Positions 9,283-23,826 of a stretch of DNA of 37,209 nucleotides are shown piece after piece (positions within the stretch are counted from its first letter, which is position 1; each line of letters begins with the position of its first letter). Below the pieces are notes generated by a model. It worked only from the letters and a program-made list of their open reading frames with translations, was not told the origin of the DNA and ran no database searches. Both the position numbers and the translations under genes were made by a program. Location: contig JAQVLW010000005.1 of assembly GCA_028703945.1 (NCBI GenBank), positions 1 to 37,209 of the forward strand, read 5' to 3'. Source of the DNA: Aliarcobacter sp. (GTDB lineage Bacteria > Campylobacterota > Campylobacteria > Campylobacterales > Arcobacteraceae).

Positions 9283-9314
9283 AAAAAAAGGCCTTTGTAG
9301 TATAAAATTAATTT

Positions 9315-9320
9315 ATTATA
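9315..9320 (-). promoter_or_regulatory. -10 element upstream of gyrA
   Basis: A perfect TATAAT on the minus strand lies 33 bases before the gyrA ATG, in the 144-base gap after ydcH. No good -35 is present at 17 bases. This fits the weak -35 requirement reported for Campylobacterota promoters, but makes the call less certain. Confidence 0.45.
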
Positions 9321-9377
9321 TCTAAAATGCGCTTAGCATAAGTTGTAATAAAATTTATAAAAATATAAATATAAAAA

Positions 9378-9407
9378 AAGGGATAAAAGCATAAACTTTC
9401 ATCCCTT
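9378..9407 (-). terminator. intrinsic terminator after the ydcH-like gene
   Basis: The arms 9378-9389 and 9396-9407 pair over 12 positions with a 6-base loop. The one non-Watson-Crick position is a G-U wobble only when read on the minus strand, and the minus-strand product ends in seven T. Both points indicate termination of the leftward transcript of the 71-aa gene, insulating gyrA. Confidence 0.8.
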
Positions 9408-9426
9408 ATTTTTAACTAACTAAAAA

Positions 9427-9642
9427 TTAATTTTCACTCTTATATTTAACAATTACAGAATAAATTTCATCTTTTAATTTTAATTTTTCTTTTTTCTTAG
9501 CTTCAATTTCAAATTGATCAGCATGTGATTCTTCTAGTTTTGCAATAACATCATCTAACTCATTATGTTTTTCAAAAAGTTTATGAAAGTGTCCATCTTT
9601 TTGTTTTAACTCTGTAATTACATCTCTGTATTCGTGAAACAT
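9427..9642 (-). CDS. YdcH family (DUF465) small coiled-coil protein
   Basis: A 71-aa, highly charged, mainly helical protein. The pattern HEYRDVITELKQKDGHFHKLFEKHNELDDVI, then a Lys/Glu-rich second helix with KLKDEIYSVI, is the DUF465/YdcH signature. The function of the family is unknown. It stands alone, with a TATAAT at 9672-9677, an AGGA ribosome-binding site and its own terminator, so it is very likely expressed as a single gene. Confidence 0.82.
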   Translation of the reverse strand: MFHEYRDVITELKQKDGHFHKLFEKHNELDDVIAKLEESHADQFEIEAKKKEKLKLKDEIYSVIVKYKSEN

Positions 9643-9671
9643 TTTGCATCCTATGTATTTAATTTTTTTGC

Positions 9672-9677
9672 ATTATA
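9672..9677 (-). promoter_or_regulatory. -10 element upstream of the ydcH-like gene
   Basis: TATAAT on the minus strand lies 29 bases before the ATG, in the 72-base gap after argJ. The upstream sequence is T/A-rich with no clear -35 at 17 bases. Confidence 0.45.
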
Positions 9678-9714
9678 CTATCTAAGTACTTAATTTTTTG
9701 TAAAAAGTTATTTA

Positions 9715-10896
9715 TTAGCTTCTATAATCTGCGTTAATTTCCACATATTTGTAACCTAAATCACATCCATATGCTATAAACTTACCCTCACCTAAACCAA
9801 TATCACAAATAATTTTATATTTATCTTTTTTTAATACTTCACCTGCTTTAGCTTCAGTTGCCGCATCAAAACAAATTTCACCTTTGTTAAAAACCACTAC
9901 ATCATTATATGAAATAACTAATTTTTCGTCATCACAATCAATTCTTGAAGCACCGATTGTTGAAGCAATTCTTCCAAAGTTTGGATCTTCTCCAAAAAGT
10001 GCAGTTTTTACTAATAATGAGTTTGATAAAGCTTTTGCAGCAATCATTGCTTGCTCATTTGAAACAGCATTTATAACTTCAAAGGCAGCAACTTTTTTTG
10101 CACCCTCACCATCTGCCACCATTAACATAGCCATATCATGCATTACAAGTCTTAAAACTTCTATAAATGCTTCTTTATCATAAGCTTTTGAATTACCATT
10201 TGATAAAACCATAACTGTATCATTTGTTGAAGTATCTCCATCAACTGAAATTGCATTAAAAGTAGTTTCACTATTTACTTTTAAAGCTTCCATAATATCA
10301 CTATAAGGAGCATCAGCATCTGTGCAAATAAAACAAAGCATAGTTGCAAGATTTGGGTTTATCATTCCAGCACCTTTAGCAACCGCTCCTATTTTAAAAG
10401 AAGTTCCATCTTCAAGTTTTACTTCATACATACAACTTTTAGGATATGCATCTGTAGTCATTATTGCTTTTGATAAATTTTCACCATTTTTAGAAGTTAA
10501 ATCAAAATTTTTTGCACCTGCTACAATTTTATCAATTGGTAAGGGATTACCAATAACTCCGGTACTACTCATAATTGGATTAACTAAATTAAAATCTAAT
10601 TGAGAAAATAATATATTAATATTTTCAATACCTTTTCTTCCAGTTAATGCATTAGCATTTTTTGAATTTATTAAAACAAAGTTTGTTTTAAATCCTTTTT
10701 CGTACTGTAAAAAATGTTTTAGTGGTGCTGCTTGAAATTTATTTTCAGTAAAAATTGCACCAACAGTACAAGGTTTATCACTATAAATAAACCCTAAATC
10801 ATTATTTCCATTTGGCTTAAGTCCAGCATGAATTCCATCACAATAAAATCCATCTATTTGATCAATATAACCTTTAATTGGTAAAATAGTAAACAT
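9715..10896 (-). CDS. argJ: bifunctional glutamate N-acetyltransferase / N-acetylglutamate synthase
   Basis: Catalyses the transacetylation of the cyclic arginine pathway, moving the acetyl group from N-acetylornithine to glutamate; bifunctional members also use acetyl-CoA. The autocleavage region AKGAGMINPNLATML is intact, with the Thr that becomes the N-terminal nucleophile of the beta chain. VDGDTSTNDT and the C-terminal ADYRS are also typical. The frame can start at ATG 10908, but GAGG would then abut the start codon. The ATG at 10896 is about 12 bases from it and gives a 393-aa protein starting MFTILPIKGYI, so I prefer it. The start lies 5 bases after the K+ channel stop, suggesting co-transcription with rpmB and the channel gene. 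Confidence 0.96.
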   Translation of the reverse strand: MFTILPIKGYIDQIDGFYCDGIHAGLKPNGNNDLGFIYSDKPCTVGAIFTENKFQAAPLKHFLQYEKGFKTNFVLINSKNANALTGRKGIENINILFSQLDFNLVNPIMSSTGVIGNPLPIDKIVAGAKNFDLTSKNGENLSKAIMTTDAYPKSCMYEVKLEDGTSFKIGAVAKGAGMINPNLATMLCFICTDADAPYSDIMEALKVNSETTFNAISVDGDTSTNDTVMVLSNGNSKAYDKEAFIEVLRLVMHDMAMLMVADGEGAKKVAAFEVINAVSNEQAMIAAKALSNSLLVKTALFGEDPNFGRIASTIGASRIDCDDEKLVISYNDVVVFNKGEICFDAATEAKAGEVLKKDKYKIICDIGLGEGKFIAYGCDLGYKYVEINADYRS

Positions 10897-10900
10897 AATT

Positions 10901-12028
10901 TTATACATCCTCTGGTTTTTTAGTTAAATTTATAATTTTTTTAGCTCTTACAATACCTTTTTGAGAACCTACTAACAATAATTTGCAATTTGCATTTATT
11001 GGCATAGTTCCCTTTGGCATTTGTATAAACTTTCCTTTTTCTTCAGTGATTCCAATTATTGAAACTTTTAATCTGTCTCTTAAATGTAAATCTTTTATCT
11101 CTTTATTCACTACCCAAGAATCTTCATTTACAAAAACTTCTTCCATATCTATTGGAGTATCTCTTTTATATAAAAATTCATCAAGAACATTTTCCATATC
11201 AGGTCTTATTGCCATTGCGGAAACTCTTTTTGCCATTAAAGAAGGAGTTGCTACAACTTTGTCAGCTCCAAGTTTTTTAAGCCTTATTTTTTCATTTTGC
11301 GTTTCTGCATTGGAAATAATTAAAAAAGGATTTCTTCCTAATTCTTTTTCATAAAGTCTAACAGAAGCTATTAAAGTAATATTATCTGAAATATTTTTTG
11401 ATAAAGAAATAGCACCTTTTGCTGAACTTAAATGTGATTTTAGAAAAGCAATTTCTTTATAAGGTTCTTCTTTTACAAAATAAGGATAATTATTTTCTTT
11501 CGCAATTTGTTCTATTTGATCACTAGGATCAACAACTACAAAAGGAATATGATTTTCTCTAAATTGTCTTGCCAATTGAGCTGTATATTCATTGTGATAA
11601 CAAATCACAAAATGTCTTCTTAATCTTGCTATTTTATAAAGCATTTTTCTTTCCTTTAATAATTCCCGTAAAGGTCCATTAGCAATAACATCAATTACGA
11701 TACCAACTGCAAAAATAAGACTTGCAAATCCAGATAACATCAAACATACTGTAAAAACTATAGTTTCATTTCTAAAATTTGATTCATTTAATGCACCAAA
11801 TCCTGTATTAGTTAATGTATATGCTGATTGAAATATTGCATGCATAATAGAATAGTCTTCAAGATAAACATATCCTAAAGTTCCTATCATCATTACAATC
11901 TGAATCAATATTAAGGGAAGTCTTAAAGGTTTGAGTTGAGAATAAATTAAGGGATTTAAATCGTATTGAGGTTTGGCTGTTCTTATTTCCCAGCCAATAG
12001 CCTTTTTTACTTTAGTAAAGATGCTCAT
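10901..12028 (-). CDS. two-TM potassium channel protein with RCK/TrkA-type domain
   Basis: A 375-aa inner-membrane ion channel. TM1 is at about residues 37-55, the pore helix and filter at 61-80, and TM2 at 88-116. Then come an RCK/TrkA_N-like Rossmann domain from about 139 and a TrkA_C-like domain in the last ~90 residues. The filter reads TNTGFG (73-78), a relative of the canonical TVGYG. The expected GXGXXG nucleotide motif is replaced by residues around CYHNEY (143-148), so NAD binding may be lost or altered. The H. pylori channel HP0490 also lies beside rpmB and, as I recall, has a TGFG filter. The gene begins 22 bases after rpmB and almost touches argJ. Confidence 0.88.
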   Translation of the reverse strand: MSIFTKVKKAIGWEIRTAKPQYDLNPLIYSQLKPLRLPLILIQIVMMIGTLGYVYLEDYSIMHAIFQSAYTLTNTGFGALNESNFRNETIVFTVCLMLSGFASLIFAVGIVIDVIANGPLRELLKERKMLYKIARLRRHFVICYHNEYTAQLARQFRENHIPFVVVDPSDQIEQIAKENNYPYFVKEEPYKEIAFLKSHLSSAKGAISLSKNISDNITLIASVRLYEKELGRNPFLIISNAETQNEKIRLKKLGADKVVATPSLMAKRVSAMAIRPDMENVLDEFLYKRDTPIDMEEVFVNEDSWVVNKEIKDLHLRDRLKVSIIGITEEKGKFIQMPKGTMPINANCKLLLVGSQKGIVRAKKIINLTKKPEDV

Positions 12029-12050
12029 GTAAGCACTTTTCTAGAGCCTT

Positions 12051-12239
12051 TTATGAGTGTTTTTTAAGAGTTCTTAGCTCTTTTGCAGAAACTTTTAATT
12101 TTGTTGTAGTTCCATCATCTAATGTAACTCTAACTGTTCTAATATTTGGTAAAAATCTTCTTTTTGTTCTGTTTTTTGCGTGACTTACGTTGTTACCAGA
12201 CATAGGTCCTTTTCCAGAGATTGCACATCTTCTTGCCAT
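12051..12239 (-). CDS. rpmB: 50S ribosomal protein L28
   Basis: A 62-aa basic ribosomal protein of the large subunit. [25 protein letters not shown] with RRFLPN following is the standard L28 beginning, and the C-terminus [12 protein letters not shown] fits. GAAGGAA precedes the ATG. It begins 62 bases downstream of the glycan cluster and probably opens the rpmB-channel-argJ transcript. Confidence 0.98.
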
Positions 12240-12273
12240 TTTGTATTCCTTCTATAGTGAAAAATATTTGCGT

Positions 12274-12279
12274 ATTGTA
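12274..12279 (-). promoter_or_regulatory. -10 element upstream of rpmB
   Basis: TACAAT (preceded by GG) on the minus strand lies 34 bases before the rpmB ATG, in the only gap (62 bases) between the glycan cluster and rpmB. No convincing -35 is seen. A weak inverted repeat, CTTAA-N5-TTAAG (12281-12295), lies just upstream but has no T-run to act as a terminator. Confidence 0.4.
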
Positions 12280-12301
12280 CCTTAATTTTCTTAAGTTATA
12301 T

Positions 12302-13171
12302 TTAAATATTCTTTATTAACTGGTTAATTTTTTCTAAACTACTTTGAAGAGTAAATTCAAAAGCTAATTTTCTATTTTCTTTCTGAATCATTTTTAAATC
12401 ATTTTCATTTAATAATATAGCATCTATTTTAAAAGCAATACTTTGATCTGTCGGCGAATCCATCGAAGCAAACACATCAACTATTTCTTTTGCATCATTA
12501 TCTAAACTAACAAAAACTACACACTTACAATACATTGCTTTTATTATATTTGTTGAAAATGATTTATTATAAGTTGGTAATAAAAATATATCTGAAGATA
12601 AAAACAAGTTCTCAATATTAGAATAATTTTCTAATAAAATTATTCTATCTTGAAGATTAGAATACTTTGAAATTTGAAAATTTAAATTAGCAATTTGTTT
12701 TTTCTCACCAGCAATTATAATTTTAAAATCACTATAATTAATAGAAGAACAAATATCCAAGAATTCTTTTACTCCCGATGATTTAAAGTTTTTTGCAGTA
12801 AAAAAAATAAGCTTAGTGTCCAAATCTATTTGTAATTCTTCACAAATCTTTGCTTTTACCTCTTTTGTATTTTTATATTCAATATTTATACTTGGATAAA
12901 TTACTTTTATTTTTTCTTGAGAGATTTTAGTTTTTTCAATAATTTTATTCATTAAATCAAAAGAATTTGTAATAGTTATTTTTGCATTTTTAATATTTTC
13001 AATAGATTTATCATCTAAAATACCTGTATGAAAATACACATCTGCATACTTCTTTTTACTAAATAAAGAAGATAGTAAATTTCTTTTTTTTAAAACTTTT
13101 ATATTTTCTTGTTTTTTTAATTCTTCGATTAACAAACTTGTTGATTTGTATGAGATTGTTATTTTATTCAT
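12302..13171 (-). CDS. short GT4-like glycosyltransferase with substituted EX7E motif
   Basis: A 289-aa GT-B fold protein resembling family 4 transferases in its C-terminal half: LIFFTAKNFKSSGVKEFLDI, FKIIIAGEKKQ, and LFLSSDIFLLPT. The N-terminal acceptor domain is only about 110 residues, much shorter than usual. At the EX7E position that normally contacts the nucleotide-sugar donor it has KSFSTNIIK, so both glutamates are lysines. It may be catalytically dead, use a different donor, or act as a partner of another transferase. It overlaps the GT2 gene by 8 bases and ends the long leftward run. Codons are extremely AT-rich. I see no frameshift, so it appears maintained as an intact gene. Confidence 0.75.
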   Translation of the reverse strand: MNKITISYKSTSLLIEELKKQENIKVLKKRNLLSSLFSKKKYADVYFHTGILDDKSIENIKNAKITITNSFDLMNKIIEKTKISQEKIKVIYPSINIEYKNTKEVKAKICEELQIDLDTKLIFFTAKNFKSSGVKEFLDICSSINYSDFKIIIAGEKKQIANLNFQISKYSNLQDRIILLENYSNIENLFLSSDIFLLPTYNKSFSTNIIKAMYCKCVVFVSLDNDAKEIVDVFASMDSPTDQSIAFKIDAILLNENDLKMIQKENRKLAFEFTLQSSLEKINQLIKNI

Positions 13172-13931
13172 CTTTATCTTTCTTTATACTCTTTTGATTA
13201 TTTAATTCATATAATTTTGCTTCTTTTAAAAATGCATAATAAGAATTATTTATAGCTGCAATAAATCCTCTTGTTCCATTAAAAAATCCTCTTTTGATGA
13301 AAAATGATTTAAAAAAAGATAATGGAAAAACAAAAATTAATTTTAATAATGAAGCTTTTTTATTTTTCTCAAATTTTTCTTGCGCTCGTAAAGAAGAATA
13401 TTCATTTATTTTATTTAAATGGGTTTTTAAATTCAACGTTCCATAATCATAAATAAAACCTTTAGCTTTTGCTATTTTACCTTTTACAACTATTGATTCA
13501 TGAACTAATTTCTTTGGATAAAATCCAACACTTTTTCTAAAAAATCTAATTCTTCTGTTAAATTTTGACTTTTCACTATTAAATTTTCCAAGATATAAAC
13601 TTGAAATCTTTATATTTAATCCATCAATTTTATTTTTTTCAATTATATCAACAATCTCATTTTTTAGTTCATTTGTTAATTGCTCATCAGCATCAAGATT
13701 TAAAACCCATTCATTTGAACATAAATTCTTTGCATACTCTTTTTGATTTGCAAATCCTTTCCACTCTTGATAAAAAACTTTATTTGTATATTTTCTTGCA
13801 ATTTCTAAAGTATTATCGATACTTCCACTATCAACAACTATAATCTCATCAAAATCTTTTACACTTTCTAAAACTCTTTGAATATGTTTTTCTTCATTCT
13901 TACAAATAATATAAACTGATGCTTTTATCAT
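13164..13931 (-). CDS. family 2 glycosyltransferase (WaaE/KdtX-like)
   Basis: A 255-aa GT-A fold transferase that probably adds a hexose to the LPS/LOS core at the cytoplasmic membrane face. It begins ASVYIICKNEEKHIQRVLES, with VDSGSIDNT and a metal-binding DXD as Asp80-Ala-Asp82 in NLDADEQL. The following RIRFFRK...KLVHESIVVKG region is like WaaE/KdtX beta-glucosyltransferases. Residues ~194-225 contain a hydrophobic/aromatic stretch (LLKLIFVFPLSFFKSFFI) that may anchor it to the membrane. The ATG overlaps the preceding deacetylase stop in an ATGA junction, with AGGA 8 bases upstream. The family is certain; the acceptor sugar is unknown. Confidence 0.87.
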   Translation of the reverse strand: MIKASVYIICKNEEKHIQRVLESVKDFDEIIVVDSGSIDNTLEIARKYTNKVFYQEWKGFANQKEYAKNLCSNEWVLNLDADEQLTNELKNEIVDIIEKNKIDGLNIKISSLYLGKFNSEKSKFNRRIRFFRKSVGFYPKKLVHESIVVKGKIAKAKGFIYDYGTLNLKTHLNKINEYSSLRAQEKFEKNKKASLLKLIFVFPLSFFKSFFIKRGFFNGTRGFIAAINNSYYAFLKEAKLYELNNQKSIKKDKDE

Positions 13932-14713
13932 AATTTATTCCTAATTCTAGTAACTTTTAATAAAAAATCTACAAAACTTTCTGTTCCCAAAATTCCAATT
14001 CTTTTTATTATAAAAGGATTATCATTTTTTTCAAATAAGCCTCTTTTTACTACTGTTGCATTTTTATATCCAATTTCTTCAACGGACTGAATAATATTAT
14101 CATTAAATTTTCCATAAGGATAAGCAAATGCTTCGCACTCTTTTTTAGTAATTTTTTCAATTTCTTCTTTAGACTTTTTAAGTTCAATAAATAATTGTTC
14201 ATCATTTATTGTTGATAAATTTACATGAGATAAAGTATGTGAACCAAACTCTATTAAACCTGTATTTTGCATTTGTAAAATTTGTTCATTATTTAATAAA
14301 TTTGATAAAATAGAAGTATTTTTTTCTTCCCAATTATTTATTGATTGATTTGGGACTAAATAAATAGTTGCTTTAAAATTGTATTTTTTTAGAATTGGAA
14401 AAGCATTTATAAAATTATCTTCATATCCGTCATCAAAAGTTACTATAAATGACTTTTTAGGAATTTCATCTAGTTTAATAAGCTCTGAAATTGTAAATGA
14501 ATTCCATTTATTATCATAAAACCATTTCATTTGTTTCTCAAAATCTTTTGGTTTTACTCTCCATTTATTATGTTTTTCATTTTCAATATGTTCACTAATA
14601 CTATGATACATTAAAACTCTAGCTTTTTTATAACTTTGTGGTAATCTCCACCAGTTATATCTAGCAGATAAAGCGATCAATAAAACTAAAATTATACTAA
14701 TTATGTAAATCAT
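13928..14713 (-). CDS. membrane-anchored polysaccharide deacetylase (NodB family), distal copy
   Basis: A 261-aa carbohydrate esterase family 4 protein that removes N-acetyl (or similar) groups from a glycan. Residues 1-17 form one hydrophobic N-terminal segment that likely anchors it with the catalytic domain in the periplasm. Motifs: VLMYHSISEH, TFDDGYEDN with Asp94/Asp95 (base and metal ligand), GSHTLSH with metal ligands His159 and His163, and FAYPYGKF near 197. All are intact. It is a clear paralog of the gene at 17732-18544, sharing the N-terminal layout and an aromatic WWR at the membrane edge. It lies 4 bases after a GT4 gene. The substrate is not identifiable; amino-sugar residues of the LOS/LPS are the natural guess. 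Confidence 0.88.
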   Translation of the reverse strand: MIYIISIILVLLIALSARYNWWRLPQSYKKARVLMYHSISEHIENEKHNKWRVKPKDFEKQMKWFYDNKWNSFTISELIKLDEIPKKSFIVTFDDGYEDNFINAFPILKKYNFKATIYLVPNQSINNWEEKNTSILSNLLNNEQILQMQNTGLIEFGSHTLSHVNLSTINDEQLFIELKKSKEEIEKITKKECEAFAYPYGKFNDNIIQSVEEIGYKNATVVKRGLFEKNDNPFIIKRIGILGTESFVDFLLKVTRIRNKL

Positions 14714-14717
14714 TATA

Positions 14718-15704
14718 TTACTTTAATAAGCTTTTGTATGCTTCTAAATATTTACTTGCCATTTTTTCTATACTATATTCATCTTTTTTATCTTTAACTT
14801 TTGCAAATAATTGTTCATATTTATCATAGTTTTCATGTACATCTTTTAATTTATTAATAAAAGCTTTTATTGAATTTTCAAAAACTAGTTTTTCTCCCAA
14901 TAACTCTTTATGATTTGCAATATCCGTTGCCACTAAAACTTTTGCATAAAAGATCCCTTCAATTAAAGCTAAAGATAGCCCTTCTTCGCTAGAAGATATA
15001 ATTTGCAAATCACTATTATAAATATAATCATGAACATTTTTAACAAAACCTACCAACTCTACTTTTTCTTGTAAATTTAATGAATTTATTAAATTTTGTA
15101 ATTCTTGTTTTTGTTCACCTTCTCCTATAATATTTAATTTAAAATCAAAATCAACCTTTGATAAAGCATTAATTAAAGTGTGAAATCCTTTTACAGGAGC
15201 TAATCTTCCAACACCAACTATATTAAATGTGTTATTTTTATCAAAATTAATCGCATCTTTAAAAGGTATTCCATTTGGTATAGTAATATTTTTTTTAGCA
15301 TTTGTATAAATTCTTGTTTCATCAGAAACTGCAACACCTAAATCGGCTAATGCAAATTTTTTCTTAACTATTGGATTATGTCTTGTACCCACTATCGGTA
15401 TTTTTTTACCAATAAAAAATATTGCATTATATATAACCTCTAACTCTTTTGTATTATGAATATGAATAATATCTGGATTAATTCTTTCTATAATTTTTGC
15501 TATTTTATATAAAAAAAATGGGTTATATCTATTTTTCTCAAAATCAACTTCAACTAAATTTACACTTTCATCTATATAAGGTTTAATTTTATTTGTTGTT
15601 AATAGATGAACTTCATGCTCTTTTGCAAATTCATTACACAAATCAACACAAACTTTTTCTGTACCAGCAAATTGAACCCAATGTAAAGTATGTAAAATAA
15701 TCAT
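14718..15704 (-). CDS. GT4 family glycosyltransferase, distal copy
   Basis: A 328-aa GT-B transferase beginning MIILHTLHWVQFAGTEKVCVD, with DIIHIHNTKELEV and GTRHNPIV in the acceptor domain. The donor domain carries FNIVGVGRLAPVKGFHTLI, FKLNIIGEGEQKQEL and SSSEEGLSLALIEGIFYAK, with an intact EX7E. It is a paralog of 16746-17735: both share RYNPF at the same position, the VGRL-KGF block, the IIGEG-QK block and the final EGL-L-LIEGI block. It overlaps the CgeB-like gene stop by 4 bases and is followed after 4 bases by a NodB deacetylase. Confidence 0.88.
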   Translation of the reverse strand: MIILHTLHWVQFAGTEKVCVDLCNEFAKEHEVHLLTTNKIKPYIDESVNLVEVDFEKNRYNPFFLYKIAKIIERINPDIIHIHNTKELEVIYNAIFFIGKKIPIVGTRHNPIVKKKFALADLGVAVSDETRIYTNAKKNITIPNGIPFKDAINFDKNNTFNIVGVGRLAPVKGFHTLINALSKVDFDFKLNIIGEGEQKQELQNLINSLNLQEKVELVGFVKNVHDYIYNSDLQIISSSEEGLSLALIEGIFYAKVLVATDIANHKELLGEKLVFENSIKAFINKLKDVHENYDKYEQLFAKVKDKKDEYSIEKMASKYLEAYKSLLK

Positions 15705-16762
15705 ATTTTTTCACCTTGTTTAAATTTATACTCACTCCACTCATAATTATTGCAATTTTTATCATCAAATAATAACTCTAACATATACTTTGTAGTTCGT
15801 TTTGCATTTGTAATTTCGTAAGTTTTAGCTTGACCTTTTTTAGCAATATCTATAAATCTATTATCTTCTAAATAATATTTTAATTTTTCAAAACAATCAT
15901 TTGGAGTATCAAAATATACAATATCAACTCCATCTTCATAAAGTTTTTCAAATCCTTTTATTCGTGGAGAAAACGTACAAATTCCTGAACCTAAAAATTG
16001 TGCCATTCTATCAGAAGCACCAAGAATCTTATCTTCATTTGTTTTTTCTAAATTATCATCCCTATTAAAATTAATTGCAATTTTAGTTTTAGCAATTACT
16101 TTGTGAAAATCATTACCAAAAATTGATGGATTACCCAATGAAGCGAAAACTTGAAGTTTTATATTTTCTTTATCACAAAATTCTTTTAATAATAGTGCAA
16201 ATTTTGTTCTAACATCTTCGTTATAATCCCTTGCAATATATATTACATCTTCAGTTTTTTCTATGTCTAAACTTTTGTCAAAAGCTGGATCAGAGATATT
16301 TGGGAAAAAAGAGAATATTGCATTTGAATATTTCTTTGATAAATTTTGTAAATCTTTTGCATTGGCATAATAAAAAACATCCATACAATCTAATTTATCA
16401 AAAAAACTATCTTTTTCTTGTAAATGGTCAACATACCATTGTACAATTTTTATTTTTGGTAAGATTTTTTTTATAGTAATTAAAGTCTCTTTATCTATCT
16501 TTTCTGCTTTTGCTAAAAATAGAATATCTGCATCTATATTTTTGCAAATATCAATTAATTTTTTATTCATTTTTTTTAATCCACTATCTTTTAAACCAAA
16601 AAATCGTGAATTTCTTTCTATATCTCTGTAACTAAAATCATAAACAAAATGCCCATTTTGCATTAAACCGTGGCTTATTTTTCTTTCTAGTCCATAAAAA
16701 AAATTTCCATTATCTTTCTCATTAAAAATACCACAATGAACTATTTTATAATGCTTTTGCAT
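15701..16762 (-). CDS. CgeB-like glycosyltransferase
   Basis: A 353-aa protein related to the CgeB / Glyco_trans_1_2 type of GT-B transferases. It begins HYKIVHCGIFNEKDNGNFFYG and has an N-terminal domain with DILFLAKAEKIDKETL. In the C-terminal domain, INFNRDDNLEKTNEDKILGASDRMAQFLGSG and SPRIKGFEKLYEDGVDIVYF are typical of the family, followed by DCFEKLKYYLED. It has no signal peptide, so it should act at the inner face of the membrane. It sits at the centre of the mirrored NodB-GT4-X-GT4-NodB block and overlaps both neighbours (17 and 4 bases). The donor and acceptor sugars cannot be read from the sequence. Confidence 0.78.
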   Translation of the reverse strand: MQKHYKIVHCGIFNEKDNGNFFYGLERKISHGLMQNGHFVYDFSYRDIERNSRFFGLKDSGLKKMNKKLIDICKNIDADILFLAKAEKIDKETLITIKKILPKIKIVQWYVDHLQEKDSFFDKLDCMDVFYYANAKDLQNLSKKYSNAIFSFFPNISDPAFDKSLDIEKTEDVIYIARDYNEDVRTKFALLLKEFCDKENIKLQVFASLGNPSIFGNDFHKVIAKTKIAINFNRDDNLEKTNEDKILGASDRMAQFLGSGICTFSPRIKGFEKLYEDGVDIVYFDTPNDCFEKLKYYLEDNRFIDIAKKGQAKTYEITNAKRTTKYMLELLFDDKNCNNYEWSEYKFKQGEKI

Positions 16763-17735
16763 CTTTGAAACCTTTATAATACTCTAGTAAATTTTTTATG
16801 TAATCATCAAAATTAAATTTTAATTGAGAATCAATATGTTTTTTTTGAAAATCTTCACAATAATAATCATATTTGTCATAAATCTTTGTAATAACATCTG
16901 AAAAGTTATCAATATCAACTAGATAATCTTTATCTAATATTTCTACAATTCCTCCAACGGGTGTTGAAATAATTACAGGACTATACAAAATACCTTCAAT
17001 TAAAGTCAAAGGCAGACCTTCACTTAATGATGACATAACTTGCAGATGACTATTTAATAAATATTGAGGAATATTATCTTTAAATCCTAAAAGTGAAACT
17101 TTTTGATTAAGATTTTTAGAGTTAATTAATTCCTCTAACTTATCTTTTTGATTTCCTTCGCCAATAATATTTAAATGAAAATCAAATTCTAACTTTGAAA
17201 CTTCTTCAATAAGCCTATCAAAACCTTTTATAGTATCAAGTCTCCCAACAGCTAGTATTGTAAATATATCATCTTTAATTGGTGTTAAATTGTGATTTTT
17301 TTTGATTCCAAAATATAAAACCTTACTTGAATGTGTAATTGTATTCGCAACCTTTAAAGAAACACTTATTACATTCTTAATTTTATTAAAAATTTTTCCT
17401 TTTCTACTATTATGTTTTGTTGCAATATGTATAAAAGAAGTAATAAATTTATTAATAAAATATGTAATTTGAGATGCTTTTGCCCCATGGGTATGAACAA
17501 TATCATAATTTTTAACTATTTTAGAAATTTCTAAATATAAAAAAGGGTTATATCTTTTATCATAAGACTTATACTCAAAAATTTTAACTTTATTTGAAAC
17601 TTTATCTTTATATTTACATCCAAAAGGAACAATTAATAAAGTATCATGTTCTTTACTAATCTCATTTATAGAATCAACTACTATCTTTTCAACTCCACCA
17701 TAAATAGTCGAACAAGAAAAATAACATATTTTCAT
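16746..17735 (-). CDS. GT4 family glycosyltransferase, proximal copy
   Basis: A 329-aa GT-B transferase beginning MKICYFSCSTIYGGVEKIVVD, with DIVHTHGAKASQ and ATKHNSRKGK in the acceptor half. The donor half has ILAVGRLDTIKGFDRLI, FHLNIIGEGNQKDKL, and SSLSEGLPLTLIEGILYSP with an intact EX7E, then STPVGGIVEIL. It is a paralog of 14718-15704. It is coupled to the preceding deacetylase by a 4-base overlap and to the CgeB-like gene by a 17-base overlap. Confidence 0.89.
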   Translation of the reverse strand: MKICYFSCSTIYGGVEKIVVDSINEISKEHDTLLIVPFGCKYKDKVSNKVKIFEYKSYDKRYNPFLYLEISKIVKNYDIVHTHGAKASQITYFINKFITSFIHIATKHNSRKGKIFNKIKNVISVSLKVANTITHSSKVLYFGIKKNHNLTPIKDDIFTILAVGRLDTIKGFDRLIEEVSKLEFDFHLNIIGEGNQKDKLEELINSKNLNQKVSLLGFKDNIPQYLLNSHLQVMSSLSEGLPLTLIEGILYSPVIISTPVGGIVEILDKDYLVDIDNFSDVITKIYDKYDYYCEDFQKKHIDSQLKFNFDDYIKNLLEYYKGFKDAKAL

Positions 17736-18544
17736 CTATTCCGTCCTTTTTTTATTTTCAAAATAAATGAAAACAGACTTTGTCTTCCACTAACCATGAT
17801 TCTTGGAATCTCAAAATTAGAATATTTAGTTTTATCAAAAACTCCATTTACTGTAGTTGTTGCATTTGTATAGGTAAGCTCTTTAACAATTTTTACAGAT
17901 TCTTTATCAAAAAAACCGAAGGGATAAGCAAAAGAATTACAAATTATGTTAAAAATTTCTTCAATTTTTTCTTTTGACTCTTTTATCTGGGTAATTTTTT
18001 CATTAAAAGTAAGCTTTGGTAGATTTACATGATCCAAAGTATGTGAGCCAATCTCTATTAATCCACTATCTATCATCTCTTTAATTTGTTCATTCAAAAG
18101 CATTTTTTCAGAATTTAATTCATTAGAAACTTGATTTAAATCTTTATCTGTTGCCCAATTTTGTTCAAACCTATTTAATACAATATAAATAGTTGCTTTA
18201 AATCCATATTTCTTAAGTAGTGCAAATGCATTTTTAAAGTTATCTTCATATCCATCATCAAAAGTTATAACTATAGACTTTTCTGGAATTTGTTCTAAAT
18301 CTACAAGTTCACTTAATGTATAGCTTTTAAAATTATTATTTTTAAGCCAAATTAGTTGTTTCTCAAATTCACTTGGTTTTACTCTTAATCTATTAAATTT
18401 AGATTTATTTTTAGGTAAATGCTCGCTAATCATATGATACATTAAAACTCTTGGATAAGAGTAAGATATATTCTTTCTCCACCAAGAAAATCTAATAGAT
18501 AATAAAATTATCCCTAAAATTAAAAAAACAACTATATATATCAT
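17732..18544 (-). CDS. membrane-anchored polysaccharide deacetylase (NodB family), proximal copy
   Basis: A 270-aa paralog of 13928-14713. A hydrophobic anchor (residues 1-17) is followed by SWWR, VLMYHMISEH, and TFDDGYEDN with Asp96/Asp97. GSHTLDH supplies metal ligands His168 and His172, and FAYPFGFF follows near 205. All catalytic motifs are intact. The two copies differ in the loop before GLIEIGSHT, so they may act on different positions of the glycan. It overlaps both the O-antigen ligase gene and the following GT4 gene by 4 bases. Confidence 0.88.
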   Translation of the reverse strand: MIYIVVFLILGIILLSIRFSWWRKNISYSYPRVLMYHMISEHLPKNKSKFNRLRVKPSEFEKQLIWLKNNNFKSYTLSELVDLEQIPEKSIVITFDDGYEDNFKNAFALLKKYGFKATIYIVLNRFEQNWATDKDLNQVSNELNSEKMLLNEQIKEMIDSGLIEIGSHTLDHVNLPKLTFNEKITQIKESKEKIEEIFNIICNSFAYPFGFFDKESVKIVKELTYTNATTTVNGVFDKTKYSNFEIPRIMVSGRQSLFSFILKIKKGRNR

Positions 18545-19698
18545 TTTGCTAACTTGAAACTATCTGAATATAAATAAAATACAAAAATTGTTAAAAAACT
18601 TAAAAGTTCTTTTGAACCAAATGCACCAAAATCAAATTGTGTTATCACTAAAAAATATGTGGCAATTGGTAATAAAATATAATTTCTTGTTTTAAAAATT
18701 TTAACTAATACAACACCTATTGTTAGAGCACATGCAAGTAATCCAATAACTCCTGTTTTAATTAATATCTCTAAAATCATATTGTGAGAATCAGGAAATT
18801 GTAATAAAAATTCATCACCTAAATTTTTCCAACTATCCATTCCATAACCAACAAAAAAGCTTTTTTGAATAAGTACAATTGTGTGTTGCCAAATCATTGT
18901 TCTATTACTAGAATTTCCCTCTAATAATTGTGCAAATCTTGTTTGAAAAGAATCAAAACTAAAATACAAAATTAATAAAAACCCTAAAAATAGTGCTAGA
19001 AAACCTAAGTGTTTTAATCTAAATTGTTTATAATTTAATATACAAAATAGTGCTGTTGCACCAAAACTAGCAACCCATGAAGATCTACAAAATGAAAAAA
19101 TCATCAAAAATGTAAAAAATGAAATAAGTAAAAAACCTAATACTTTTCTATCTTGAATTAATAATAAACTCAAAACAAATCCCATTCCAATGCTTAAACC
19201 AAAGGCATTTCTATTATCCAATGTACCAACTATACCTTCACCTAAAATTACTTCTGGATGATTTAGAACTTGATAAACTCCAGTTAAACCCAGATAAAAA
19301 AATGAAAGTATAGAAAAGATTACAATATCTCTTTTTGAAAAGAAATCAAATTTATAAAAATAAGCCAAAATTATAAAAATAAGTCCATACCTATAAATAA
19401 ACATAAAAATCAAACTCCAAGATTTTTTATCTAAGATTTCTAAATTACTAACATTTGCCAAAAGCATAGTAAAAATTATTAGAATAAAACCAACAAAAAG
19501 AAAAACTGTTTGATTAAAATTACTTTTTAAAACTATAAACTCTTTTGTTTTAAAAATATGATAAACAAAATATAAAACCATTAGTACAGATGAAATCTGA
19601 AAAACTATATTTTTAAAAGGAATTGACATTATCCATAAAAATAAAAAAGACTTAAATAAAAGTTGCTCATTCATCTCAAAATTTAAAAATCTACTCAT
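18541..19698 (-). CDS. O-antigen ligase family membrane protein (WaaL-like)
   Basis: A 385-aa polytopic inner-membrane protein with about ten hydrophobic segments and a larger periplasmic loop (about residues 235-285, SFDSFQTRFAQLLEGNSSNRT). Within this loop, EGNSSNRTMIWQHTI and FPDSHNMILEILIKTG are the conserved Wzy_C/WaaL features, with the essential-type His in DSHNM. WaaL-type ligases transfer undecaprenyl-linked glycan onto lipid A-core in the periplasm. The related Wzy polymerases and protein-glycan ligases look similar, so the exact role is inferred. It overlaps the upstream GT4 gene by 8 bases and the following deacetylase by 4. Confidence 0.85.
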   Translation of the reverse strand: MSRFLNFEMNEQLLFKSFLFLWIMSIPFKNIVFQISSVLMVLYFVYHIFKTKEFIVLKSNFNQTVFLFVGFILIIFTMLLANVSNLEILDKKSWSLIFMFIYRYGLIFIILAYFYKFDFFSKRDIVIFSILSFFYLGLTGVYQVLNHPEVILGEGIVGTLDNRNAFGLSIGMGFVLSLLLIQDRKVLGFLLISFFTFLMIFSFCRSSWVASFGATALFCILNYKQFRLKHLGFLALFLGFLLILYFSFDSFQTRFAQLLEGNSSNRTMIWQHTIVLIQKSFFVGYGMDSWKNLGDEFLLQFPDSHNMILEILIKTGVIGLLACALTIGVVLVKIFKTRNYILLPIATYFLVITQFDFGAFGSKELLSFLTIFVFYLYSDSFKLAK

Positions 19699-20782
19699 TT
19701 ATTATTCCTTTATAAACTTCAACTGTTTTACTAACCATATTCTCCAAAGAAAAATTACTACTAATATAACGGTACCCATCAAAACTTAAAATTCTAGATT
19801 CCAAAATATTTTTAGCTAACTCTTTATAATCGCCAACTTCAAAGAAAAAACCATTAACATTCTCAATAATTATATCTTTAACTCCACCATGATTTGTAGC
19901 AATCACAGGTTTATTCATACAAATGGCCTCAGCAACAGCTCGTCCGAAACTCTCTGGCTTTTTTGAACTACTGATTAGCACATCACTTAAAGCATAAATT
20001 TGCTCAATTTTACTTTGGCTTCCTGTAAAGATGATATTCTCTTCTAAACTTAACTCTTTTATTAAACTTTTCAAAGAATTTAAATAATCCTCTTTATCAC
20101 TTCTTACACCACCAACAATTAAACCTACAATATTTGGAATCTCTATTTTTACAAGTAAAATAGCTTTTATAAATGTTTCATAATCTTTTAGTTGAGTAAC
20201 TCTTCCAACACTTGAAACTACAAATTTATTTTTTAAATTAAACTCTTTTTTAAAATCTTCAATAAAACTATTATCAATATTTTTTGGATTAAAAAGTTCT
20301 AAATCAATTCCCCTTGGAATCACTGAGATTTTATTTTCACTTGTTTGATAATACTTTTGAATATACTCTTTTATGCTATTACTCACACAAATCACCGCAT
20401 CTGATTTTTGCATGATTGAGCTATAAAATCCAACACTATTAAAACCATGAACTGTACTAACTACTTTTATCTTTAGGCTTTTATTTGCAAAATAAACAAG
20501 CCATGCAGGAACTCTACTTCGTACATGAATGATATCTGGATTTATTTCTTTTAAAATCTTTTTTAAAGTATTTACTCTTGAAAATGCTGTGAAAATATTT
20601 TTACTACAAACATCAAATTTCACATGATTTCCACCATCAAAATCTATTCGATTTTCAAGTTTTCCACTGGCACTTATTACAAAAGATTCTATTCCTTTTT
20701 TTACAAACTCACGGTTTAGTTCAACAACACCTCGTTCAACTCCACCTTCATTTAATTCAGGAATAACTTGTACAATTCTCAT
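19691..20782 (-). CDS. GT4 family glycosyltransferase
   Basis: A 363-aa GT-B transferase. It begins MRIVQVIPELNEGGVERGVVE with the glycine-rich acceptor-domain start, followed by DIIHVRSRVPAW, VSTVHGFNSVG and ISVIPRGIDLELF. The donor domain has VSSVGRVTQLKDYETFI, and SSSKKPESFGRAVAEAICMNKP with an intact EX7E, then ATNHGGVKDII. It is more distant from the paired GT4 genes at 14718 and 16746 than they are from each other. It starts 3 bases after the nucleotide-sugar dehydrogenase stop and overlaps the O-antigen ligase. Confidence 0.9.
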   Translation of the reverse strand: MRIVQVIPELNEGGVERGVVELNREFVKKGIESFVISASGKLENRIDFDGGNHVKFDVCSKNIFTAFSRVNTLKKILKEINPDIIHVRSRVPAWLVYFANKSLKIKVVSTVHGFNSVGFYSSIMQKSDAVICVSNSIKEYIQKYYQTSENKISVIPRGIDLELFNPKNIDNSFIEDFKKEFNLKNKFVVSSVGRVTQLKDYETFIKAILLVKIEIPNIVGLIVGGVRSDKEDYLNSLKSLIKELSLEENIIFTGSQSKIEQIYALSDVLISSSKKPESFGRAVAEAICMNKPVIATNHGGVKDIIIENVNGFFFEVGDYKELAKNILESRILSFDGYRYISSNFSLENMVSKTVEVYKGIINE

Positions 20783-20785
20783 ATA

Positions 20786-22057
20786 TTATAATTTCCAAGA
20801 AGGCTCAGGAACAATTCCCTTAACATCAATAATTATTTTTTCACCATTTATTATGTTGTCATACTCTTTTTGACTTAATGATTTAAATTTATCATGTCCA
20901 ACTGCTACAACTATTGAGTCATATTTTTTTGAGTTTTCAAATGGATTTTCTACAAAAGTATAATCATAATAATCTTTATCTTTTTCATCAATCCAAGGTT
21001 CATAAACATCTATATTTGCACCATAATCTTTTAATTCAGAGATAATATCTACAACTTTAGTATTTCTTATATCTGGACAATTTTCTTTAAAAGTTAATCC
21101 CATGATTAAAATATTTGAATCTTTTATAAGTTTTCCAACTTTAATCATAAGTTTGATTGTTTTTTCAGCGATATATTTTCCCATTCCATTATTTATCTGT
21201 CTTGCACCCAAAATAAGGTTTGGTTTATATCCTAATTCTTCTGACTTAAAAGTAAGATAATATGGGTCAACACCTATACAGTGTCCTCCAACCAATCCTG
21301 GTTTTAGTTTAATAAAATTCCATTTAGTTGCAGCTGCTTCTATTACATCATTTGTATTTATATTCATAGTATCAAAAATTAAAGCTAATTCATTTATCAA
21401 AGCAATATTCACATCTCTTTGAGTATTTTCAATTACTTTTGCTGCTTCTGCTACTTTTATCGAACTTGCTTTATAAGTTCCTGCTGTGATGATTGATTTA
21501 TAAAGTTCATCAACAACTATTGCAATTTCTGGATTTGAACCTGAAGTTATTTTAAGTATTTTTGTAACTGTATGTTCTTTATCACCTGGATTAATTCTCT
21601 CAGGAGAATACCCACAAAAGAAATCTTTATTAAAAATCATTCCTGATTCTTTCTCTAATTCAGGAACACAAACTTCTTCTGTTACACCTGGATATACTGT
21701 CGATTCATAGATTACAATATCATCTCTTTTTAATACTTTTCCAATAGTTTGTGAAGATTTAATTAAAGGAGTTAAATCAGGTCTATTCGTACTATCAATT
21801 GGAGTGGGAACTGTAACTATATAGATATTACAATCTTTTATATCATCTATATTTGTGCTATAAATCATCCCATTTTTTATTGATTCATTTACTTCATCAC
21901 TTGTTAATTCCAAGGTTCTATCAAATCCACTATTTAGCTCATCAACTCTTGGTTTATTTATATCAAAACCTACTACTTGATATTTTTCAGAAAATGCATG
22001 TGCTAAGGGTAGTCCTACATAGCCTAGTCCGACTATACATATTTTTTTATTCAACAT
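20786..22057 (-). CDS. UDP-N-acetylhexosamine 6-dehydrogenase (WbpO/TviB type)
   Basis: A 423-aa NAD-dependent nucleotide-sugar dehydrogenase that would oxidise C6 of UDP-GlcNAc or UDP-GalNAc to the uronic acid in two steps. Seen: Rossmann motif GLGYVGLP (residues 10-17), VPTPID, ESTVYPGVTEEVCVPELE, FCGYSPERINPGDKEH, the catalytic Cys260 in GLVGGHCIGVDPYYL, and LTFKENCPDIRNTKV in the C-terminal domain. The sequence is closer to the WbpO/TviB/WbpA group than to UDP-glucose dehydrogenase; UDP-GlcNAc and UDP-GalNAc cannot be told apart by eye. It supplies an acidic sugar to the glycan cluster. The partner epimerase and transaminase genes are not in the window. Confidence 0.9.
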   Translation of the reverse strand: MLNKKICIVGLGYVGLPLAHAFSEKYQVVGFDINKPRVDELNSGFDRTLELTSDEVNESIKNGMIYSTNIDDIKDCNIYIVTVPTPIDSTNRPDLTPLIKSSQTIGKVLKRDDIVIYESTVYPGVTEEVCVPELEKESGMIFNKDFFCGYSPERINPGDKEHTVTKILKITSGSNPEIAIVVDELYKSIITAGTYKASSIKVAEAAKVIENTQRDVNIALINELALIFDTMNINTNDVIEAAATKWNFIKLKPGLVGGHCIGVDPYYLTFKSEELGYKPNLILGARQINNGMGKYIAEKTIKLMIKVGKLIKDSNILIMGLTFKENCPDIRNTKVVDIISELKDYGANIDVYEPWIDEKDKDYYDYTFVENPFENSKKYDSIVVAVGHDKFKSLSQKEYDNIINGEKIIIDVKGIVPEPSWKL

Positions 22058-22064
22058 TTTTCCT

Positions 22065-22940
22065 TTATATTTTTACTCTTTTTAATATTTTTACAAAATC
22101 TAACTTTTCATCCATATCATTAATTATAGATGCTAATTTATGATATTTTGTATTCTCTTTTTTTGATTCTAATTCAATTATATTTATTTTAGCATCACTA
22201 TTTGCTCTTACTTCACTTAACATTGAAGTAGAATCTATTGTTATGAAAAATTCATCACAAATAGCTATAAAATCGCCTATTGGATTTATATCTGGTTCTT
22301 TTGAATAAATAATTTTATAATTAAAATTATACTCATTAATTAGTGATTCAATCTTAGATGATGTTCTTCTTGAAGTAGTCACATATTTTAAATAATCAGG
22401 ATACTTTTTAAAAATCTCATCTAATTTTTCTTTTATTACATGATAAGGCATTGTAAAAATGCCATTATCTCCACCAATTATTACAGCAAGAGATTTTTTA
22501 TCTTCAATTTTCTTAATATAACCTTTTGGGCTTGGATACGACAGATTTAAAGGAATAGCCAATAAATTATCTAACAAAATAGGATGATCATGCTCTTGTG
22601 CGATTATATAATAAAAATTTGAGTATTTATAAGATTTCGGAAGCATTAATGCAATTGATTTTTTATTATATTTTTGAGATATCAACTTACTAAAATAATA
22701 AGTCCCTGAACCTGCACTAATAATTGCATCATAAAACTCTGGATAATAATTTTTATGTTCTTCAAAAAGAGAGTCTGTAAAAAAATCAAATCTATCAAAA
22801 ATATAAGATAAAACTTTATGAAATTTTGATTTGAATTTTACTTCTAAAATATCATAACTAATATTTTTAATTTTACAAAAAGCTATTGATTGATTTAAAT
22901 GCCCTGGTTTCCCATCACTTATTATTAAAATTCTTTTCAT
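22065..22940 (-). CDS. ELM1/GtrOC1-type putative glycosyltransferase
   Basis: A 291-aa protein starting MKRILIISDGKPGHLNQSIAF, a hallmark of the family that bacterial annotations call mitochondrial fission ELM1/GtrOC1. Later blocks YDAIISAGSGTYYFSK, LAVIIGGDNGIFTM, TTSRRTSSKIESLI and FFITIDSTSMLSEV fit a GT-B-like fold. The frame is open to 23003, but I chose the ATG at 22940, preceded by AAAGAGA, because the family motif begins there. The gene still overlaps the acyltransferase by 26 bases. Neighbourhood with a lipid A acyltransferase is recurrent for this family, supporting a role in LOS/LPS; activity is inferred. Confidence 0.8.
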   Translation of the reverse strand: MKRILIISDGKPGHLNQSIAFCKIKNISYDILEVKFKSKFHKVLSYIFDRFDFFTDSLFEEHKNYYPEFYDAIISAGSGTYYFSKLISQKYNKKSIALMLPKSYKYSNFYYIIAQEHDHPILLDNLLAIPLNLSYPSPKGYIKKIEDKKSLAVIIGGDNGIFTMPYHVIKEKLDEIFKKYPDYLKYVTTSRRTSSKIESLINEYNFNYKIIYSKEPDINPIGDFIAICDEFFITIDSTSMLSEVRANSDAKINIIELESKKENTKYHKLASIINDMDEKLDFVKILKRVKI

Positions 22941-23826
22941 ATATCTCTTTATAATGACTTTTAAACCTTTTGTGAGGCCAAAACCATTGTTTTTTATCTT
23001 CATATATTATAGCAGATATTGCATTAGCTTCCAATTGAGAAATTATTTTTATATCATTTTTTTCATTATCAGTTTTAATAGGAATAATTGGGTCATATAT
23101 TTTTATTTTATATTTATAATTATCCTGATTAAAAATAGCAATTGGAATTATATAAGCATCAAATTTTCTAGCTAAATTTGCACTAGAAGATGTTTGATAA
23201 GCTTTTTTTCCTAAAAACACCACCTCTTCACCCTCTCTTGAATTAATATTTTGATCAATCAATAAAGATACTGCCTCTTTTTTTAACATTGCTTTTACAA
23301 GTATTTTTATAGCCCCTGATCTAAAAATAATCTTACTTCCTGACGTTTCTCTAGCTTTTATAATAAACTCATCTATCTCTTCAAAATTTGATTCCCTTGC
23401 TACTTGATACACAGGAATTACAAATCTATTAATATAATGACTAAGCATCTCTATATTTCCATAATGAGCAGAAATAAAAATTAAAGGTTTACCCTCTTTT
23501 TTTAAATTCTCAATAATATGAAGATTTTCTATTTGAACTGTTTTTCTAAGTTCTTCATCTGTAACATCTAAGTTTTCGATAAGCGATTGGACCCATAAAA
23601 TCATATTAAAATAAGAGTATTTTTGAATCTCTTTAATTTCTAAATCTGATAAAGTATTTCCAAAAACAAAATCTAAATTTGTTTTTATTATTCCATTTGT
23701 TTTTTTTGCAAACAAATATCCAGAAGCTGCTATAAATCTAAAAAAGGCTCTTCTTAAAAATTTTGGCATTTTTCTTAGTATAAAAATAACTACTAAAAAA
23801 AGCTTATAAACCATTTTTTTCATCAT
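22915..23826 (-). CDS. lipid A late acyltransferase (LpxL/HtrB-like)
   Basis: A 303-aa inner-membrane acyltransferase that would add a secondary fatty acid to lipid A. It has an N-terminal hydrophobic segment (about residues 6-18). The catalytic HX4E is His121 to Glu126 in ISAHYGNIEM. LLIDQNINSREGEEVVFLGK matches the family substrate-binding block, and the C-terminal QWFWPHKRFK matches the usual QWFW-H-R-K end. Which acyl chain and position are used cannot be read. The ATGA overlap with the ppx-like stop implies translational coupling. Confidence 0.9.
   Translation of the reverse strand: MMKKMVYKLFLVVIFILRKMPKFLRRAFFRFIAASGYLFAKKTNGIIKTNLDFVFGNTLSDLEIKEIQKYSYFNMILWVQSLIENLDVTDEELRKTVQIENLHIIENLKKEGKPLIFISAHYGNIEMLSHYINRFVIPVYQVARESNFEEIDEFIIKARETSGSKIIFRSGAIKILVKAMLKKEAVSLLIDQNINSREGEEVVFLGKKAYQTSSSANLARKFDAYIIPIAIFNQDNYKYKIKIYDPIIPIKTDNEKNDIKIISQLEANAISAIIYEDKKQWFWPHKRFKSHYKEIYEKNFNNK

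Follow-up and report, generated by a model that had tools for sequence, protein, structure and literature searches.

Introduction

In Acinetobacter baumannii, the ELM1-family protein 2903 and LpsB, supplied with uridine diphosphate (UDP)-linked N-acetylglucosaminuronic acid (GlcNAcA) by the TviB/WbpA homologue Gna, place a 3-deoxy-D-manno-oct-2-ulosonic acid residue (KdoIII) and GlcNAcA on Kdo2-lipid A, and this addition also works in E. coli WBB06 (VanOtterloo et al., PMC10936431). The mass gain reported for Kdo2-lipid A with 2903/LpsB/Gna is about 437 Da (m/z 2237.0 to 2674.4; PMC10936431). Deletion of deacetylase 2901 or glycosyltransferase (GT) 2900 abolishes a glucosamine (GlcN) residue, and 2901 was proposed to deacetylate UDP-N-acetylglucosamine (UDP-GlcNAc) ahead of transfer (PMC10936431). 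The group B core-oligosaccharide (OC) loci comprise ELM1, pda2, GT4 and again ELM1 genes (Kenyon et al., PMC4172580). Here, we analyze a 37,209-nucleotide stretch of DNA from Aliarcobacter sp. (contig JAQVLW010000005.1, positions 1 to 37,209; hereafter the window), in which five consecutive genes form the mirror-image order NodB-GT4-CgeB-GT4-NodB. We conclude, with a probability of about 0.6, that this block is part of an Acinetobacter-like operon for the core of lipopolysaccharide (LPS) or lipooligosaccharide (LOS) that lacks GT9 heptosyltransferases and yields up to two free amino sugars, its mirror order having been assembled piecewise. The conclusion draws on the content of the locus, the equivalence of its site, the near-complete exclusion of GT9 enzymes, the conservation of the cassette and the intact deacetylase active sites.

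Results

Locus content and chromosomal site

The window is carried by a 77.6 kb contig of a 2.33 Mb genome that is 99.9% complete, and its nearest named relative is a metagenome bin from Sandtown labelled Aliarcobacter sp. (91% identity in NodB_A). As the original prediction had described, open reading frame calls place the five genes consecutively on the minus strand: the membrane-anchored polysaccharide deacetylase NodB_A (17732..18544), the glycosyltransferase GT4_A (16746..17735), a CgeB-like glycosyltransferase (15701..16762), GT4_B (14718..15704) and a second membrane-anchored polysaccharide deacetylase, NodB_B (13928..14713). All five gave domain matches well over cut-off (PF01522, GT4 families, PF13524, GT4 families and PF01522, respectively). 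Neighbours within the block overlap by 4 or 17 bases or sit 4 bases apart, which, together with the common strand, suggests that the five genes form one operon.

Upstream, in the same direction, lie genes for an LpxL-type lipid A acyltransferase (22915..23826, PF03279), the first gene after ppx, and for an ELM1-family GT-like protein (22065..23003), a candidate TviB/WbpA/Gna-like UDP-GlcNAc 6-dehydrogenase (20786..22057), a third GT4 enzyme, GT4_C (19691..20782), and a Wzy_C/O-antigen-ligase-like membrane protein (18541..19698, PF04932). Downstream, a GT2 glycosyltransferase (13164..13931) and a short GT4-like protein (12302..13171), recognised by domain matches and gene maps, are also encoded on the minus strand, the latter being the last gene of the locus.

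The original prediction of an LOS/LPS locus is borne out by position: the block lies downstream of suhB-ppx, a core site where relatives have waaC...waaF. This site carries either ppx-waaC-lpxL...waaF-gmhA-hldE-hldD or ppx-lpxL-ELM1-(UGD)-GT4_C-cassette, and lpxL adjoins the site in both core types. The GT9-type relatives L172-L174 read suhB-ppx-waaC-lpxL-...-waaF-gmhA-hldE, where the gene names follow family membership and synteny with PMC5495459.

The two core types exclude each other almost completely. Within the genus, a GT9 enzyme was found in 0 of 7 genomes with NodB and in 23 of 24 others (Fisher 3e-6), the sole exception among the latter being a genome only 54% complete. In a phylum sample of 397 genomes, 2/25 NodB genomes and 354/372 others had GT9 (Fisher 5e-24). 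With GT4_C, the marker of the heptosyltransferase-free type, strong GT9 matches (E<1e-40) occur in none of 11 genus genomes with GT4_C and in 19 of 20 lacking it, and across the phylum GT9 is missing from 31/52 GT4_C-positive and 10/345 GT4_C-negative genomes, absence here meaning that a genome is missing from the list of GT9-matching genomes. Both core states are found inside each of four genera (g1, g22, g30 and g35). The Aliarcobacter genome itself has waaA, and its GT9 matches are two fragments only.

Similarity to the Acinetobacter core enzymes

The ELM1-family protein matches PF06258 (E 6e-21), the Pfam family of A. baumannii GtrOC1/2903 (PMC4172580, PMC10936431). The dehydrogenase matches the NCBIfam TviB model with E 2e-162 and 541 bits, under the curated cut-off of 592. 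Homologues of GT4_C are present in 8/8 gammaproteobacterial genomes with NodB_A-type genes (35-39% identity; E 1e-53 to 2e-63); in four Moraxellaceae genomes the homologue is full-length, 35-36% identical, located outside the OC-like locus and adjacent to an acyltransferase gene. By homology, GT4_C is a good candidate for the LpsB counterpart, short of proof. Among solved structures, a glycosyltransferase of Rickettsia africae (7mi0, E 1e-55) comes closest to GT4_C and might serve as a template for modelling an LpsB-like enzyme.

A further parallel comes from Alkanindiges, a member of the A. baumannii family, where locus L085 has the order ELM1-NodB-GT4-ELM1, the same as in the group B OC loci. 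Its setting is read as glnE-ilvE, judging by how long the adjacent proteins are.

Conservation of the mirror order

Conservation was read from gene maps of 31 related loci. The exact, uninterrupted order NodB_A-GT4_A-CgeB-GT4_B-NodB_B is present in 11 loci, the window included (the window, L031, L032, L033, L044, L148, L150, L154, L155, L156 and L159), and 16 loci keep it once inserted, moved, fused, duplicated or broken genes are tolerated, as in L149, L151, L152, L153 and L157. Partial forms comprise NodB_A-GT4-NodB_B in Arcobacter caeni (L034) and loci without CgeB and GT4_B (L158), without NodB_A and GT4_A (L161) or without GT4_B and NodB_B (L160). The carriers belong to Arcobacteraceae (f1) and to a family that we take to be Campylobacteraceae (f3), L160 belonging to f10.

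The mirror order is real and old. Symmetry by itself is weak evidence and its conservation strong: 2 of the 30 possible orders of two NodB, two GT4 and one CgeB-like gene are palindromic, so chance may account for how the symmetry arose but not for why it was conserved. The argument that neither one inversion nor one tandem duplication yields this order is sound, and inversion as its origin is ruled out by the common strand of all the genes and by an order common to two families.

The central gene only partly keeps the CgeB-like label it had been given, since its product matches the PF13524 domain but no NCBIfam model. Its AlphaFold2 model (predicted local distance difference test 86.7, predicted template modelling score 0.88) has as top Foldseek matches the GT4 enzymes BshA, PglA and MshA, and a GT-B fold closest to GT4 enzymes can be predicted with confidence. 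The PDB holds no sequence match for this protein.

History of the two GT4 and two NodB genes

Paralogy within each pair, as originally proposed, is genuine. Pairwise BLASTP gave 48% identity for the deacetylases (E 2e-78) and 37% for GT4_A and GT4_B (E 6e-53), and the SWWR/NWWR, RYNPF, IIGEG and EGL..LIEGI motifs are all there. Both GT4 enzymes have GT-B family domains (PF00534/PF13692) and an EX7E motif, EGLPLTLIE in GT4_A and EGLSLALIE in GT4_B. In the GT4 tree they form sister clades (support 98) relative to the GT4 that follows single-copy NodB. On a Sulfurovum contig (L099), a GT4_A-like and a GT4_B-like gene form an immediate tandem from which the intervening CgeB-like gene is missing; the NodB of this contig is of the B type and is encoded farther downstream, behind a GT2-type gene. 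The GT4_B position also holds tandem copies in L152, in L151, where they are fused, and in L157, where both are broken.

The deacetylases have a different history. In three trees, NodB_A clusters with single-copy NodB of Arcobacteraceae, Sulfurovum and gammaproteobacteria, a family located after ELM1/GT4_C and represented by Poseidonibacter lekithochrous, leaving NodB_B outside (99/94, 100/97 and 96/89). A 7-residue insertion is common to NodB_A and single-copy NodB and missing from NodB_B and the outgroups. A tree joining A and B has an approximately unbiased p value (p-AU) of about 0.049, obtained twice, so that the grouping of NodB_A with single-copy NodB is favoured, not proven; NodB_A and NodB_B probably did not arise from the GT4 duplication. 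The trees suggested for both pairs agree with the original expectation for the GT4s, as sister paralogues, and depart from it for the deacetylases, which probably group apart.

Linkage differs between the two sides. NodB_B is followed by the GT2 gene in 19/19 loci and preceded by an intact GT4_B in 15/19; it persists without GT4_B in L034 and L158 and, itself intact, beside a broken one in L153 (8228-9176) and L157 (9467-11456, two tandem copies). One of the broken L157 copies has a G9 tract at 10874 and is possibly phase-variable. The proposed pairing of deacetylase and GT4 genes is accordingly seen on the A side, where NodB_A and GT4_A are lost together in L161, and is loose on the B side, where NodB_B outlasts GT4_B and stays with GT2.

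These data bear on the assembly line proposed originally, in which every GT4 would attach an N-acetylated sugar for the adjacent NodB to deacetylate, here taken together with duplication of a NodB-GT4 pair as a unit. Such a scheme would fit the paired absences, of NodB_A and GT4_A in L161 and of GT4_B and NodB_B in L160, as well as the A. baumannii precedent, where 2901 and 2900 are both required for one GlcN (PMC10936431). We nevertheless regard it as unlikely, given the discordant NodB and GT4 trees, the retention of NodB_B with GT2 where GT4_B is missing or broken, and the swapping of GT4_B alleles independently of their NodB_B. Duplication of the pair as a unit is disfavoured by the trees, the shared insertion and the linkage, although the AU test is marginal.

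The waaC/waaF-type loci of the genus (L172 14075-15531; L009-L017, L019) have a 236 aa NodB-like gene immediately before a GT2 gene; the products of the two genes share about 30-36% identity with the window's NodB_B and GT2. Derivation of NodB_B from this short NodB is unsupported; the tree puts those proteins in a distant clade.

GT4_B has probably exchanged sequence within the gene. The window and a close relative (G023) are 83-99% identical over most of the locus, whereas the segment 14811..15440 on the minus strand is mostly 30-80% identical at the DNA level, between flanks mostly at about 90% or above, and is a probable intragenic recombination tract. Two forms of GT4_B, EX7E (EGLSLALIE, the allele of the window) and EX7D (EPYGLTAID), each occur in both families, the flanking genes being conserved, and a single origin of the GT4_B proteins of Arcobacteraceae is rejected (p-AU 0.00017). 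The donor-binding part of GT4_B has likely been exchanged between lineages, perhaps changing the sugar added.

Predicted activity and location of the deacetylases

Both deacetylases contain the TFDDG and HTxxH catalytic motifs of the NodB/PF01522 family. The catalytic residues D96, D97, H168 and H172 of NodB_A and D94, D95, H159 and H163 of NodB_B are invariant in 19/19 sequences of each clade; with these sites intact, both proteins look active. As read from the sequence, each has one N-terminal hydrophobic stretch, preceded by no positive charges and followed by Arg/Lys residues; under the positive-inside rule, this arrangement suggests that the catalytic domain is cytoplasmic. Such a location fits action on the nascent core or on nucleotide sugars.

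One or both deacetylases might target a nucleotide- or lipid-linked precursor, or peptidoglycan, rather than the growing core. The closest solved structures, generic or PgaB-type deacetylases, leave room for this, and 2901 itself is proposed to act on UDP-GlcNAc before transfer (PMC10936431). We consider it distinctly doubtful: the genes occur strictly in core loci, linked to GT genes, and deacetylation of UDP-GlcNAc would equally yield GlcN in the core.

Discussion

We propose that the ELM1 protein, the TviB-like dehydrogenase and GT4_C would, by homology with 2903, Gna and LpsB, make an inner-core base of KdoIII-GlcNAcA on Kdo2-lipid A. GT4_A, the CgeB-like enzyme, GT4_B and GT2 are predicted to elongate the core at the cytoplasmic face. 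NodB_A, near ELM1, GT4_C and GT4_A, and NodB_B, tied to GT2, would act as N-deacetylases, so that the core has up to two free amino sugars, GlcN or galactosamine (GalN), prior to export, after which the Wzy_C protein may ligate the product. The idea of amino sugars is plausible by analogy with A. baumannii and enterobacterial WabH/WabN.

The gene order probably arose in pieces: a GT4 gene was duplicated in tandem, the CgeB-like gene entered between the two copies, and NodB_A on one flank and NodB_B-GT2 on the other were added as separate units. The tandem GT4s of L099, the repeated GT4_B tandems, the discordant trees, the shared insertion and the NodB_B-GT2 linkage all argue for stepwise assembly, and the mirror order is probably a by-product of such shuffling.

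Several points weigh against this account. The genome counts are uncorrected for phylogeny, and no LPS/LOS structure of any carrier was found. The ELM1 protein is a remote relative of its gammaproteobacterial counterparts (21-26% identity), and the candidate assignment of GT4_C as LpsB rests on Moraxellaceae homologues. The tree joining NodB_A and NodB_B is rejected only marginally (p-AU 0.049 in two tests), with long outgroup branches. The Aliarcobacter genome retains gmhA-hldE-hldD-gmhB on contig C87 (L171, G000:C87, 24-3551; hldD and gmhB named by order and sequence starts), so ADP-heptose may serve a non-GT9 enzyme; these genes are unexplained if the core is strictly heptose-free. Finally, L175 (G010, 8492-16731) is of the ELM1-UGD-GT4_C core type and its locus lacks any gene of the NodB_A or NodB_B type, making the deacetylases an optional part of this type.

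Two side observations concern the same loci. Contig C87 ends directly after gmhA, the waaF position in GT9-type relatives, and L175 encodes a CgeB-like protein of its own as well as a different GT9.

Synthesis of an O-antigen, capsule or other polysaccharide instead of the core, to which the Wzy_C-domain protein in the operon and the Vi-capsule TviB as best model of the dehydrogenase might point, is improbable given the waaC/waaF position of the site beside the LpxL gene, the near-complete exclusion of GT9 and the lack of any recognised flippase or ABC exporter among the scanned window genes.

More broadly, we see even odds that Campylobacterota have two mutually exclusive core systems at one site, WaaC/WaaF and an Acinetobacter-like ELM1/TviB/LpsB type (predicted KdoIII-GlcNAcA), repeatedly switched within genera, the latter often with a two-deacetylase cassette that exchanges the GT4_B donor domain as EX7E/EX7D alleles. 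LPS core sugars determine membrane stability, recognition by phages and antibodies, and sensitivity to cationic peptides. If the proposal is right, relatives of Campylobacter jejuni have repeatedly swapped the textbook heptose route for one known in detail only from Acinetobacter, the rare ELM1/LpsB mechanism becomes testable in a second phylum, and the failure of heptosyltransferase searches in some Arcobacter-like and Campylobacter-like genomes is explained. Our limited literature search, in which absence is unproven, found no paper describing such a core system in Campylobacterota; papers on Arcobacter or Campylobacter LOS deacetylases were likewise not found.

Among described systems, the waaC-waaF LOS locus of Arcobacter/Campylobacter (PMC5495459) occupies, within the genus, the chromosomal site of the window block and likewise has lpxL and variable GT genes; in many such loci a GT2 gene is immediately preceded by a shorter NodB-like gene. 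It differs in having the heptosyltransferases WaaC/WaaF and no ELM1/GT4_C, its NodB being a distant relative (about 30%). The WabH-WabN pair of the Klebsiella/Edwardsiella LPS core (PMC5485987) is alike in working: a GT adds GlcNAc, a deacetylase gene is present, and the core has GlcN. That core, however, is heptose-containing and uses waaC/waaF (PMC5485987), and the likeness to NodB_A/NodB_B drawn here is one of predicted function.

The A. baumannii OC locus together with LpsB/Gna, like the window, combines an ELM1-family protein, a polysaccharide deacetylase, GT4 enzymes and a TviB-type dehydrogenase, and builds its core without WaaC/WaaF, with LpsB and the dehydrogenase each matched in the window by a candidate. 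The genes for the ELM1 protein, the dehydrogenase and the LpsB-like enzyme are adjacent in the window, whereas A. baumannii lpsB lies outside the ilvE-aspS locus; two NodB genes flank GT4-CgeB-GT4, and a Wzy_C protein is present. The block sits after suhB-ppx, while the A. baumannii OC locus is at ilvE.

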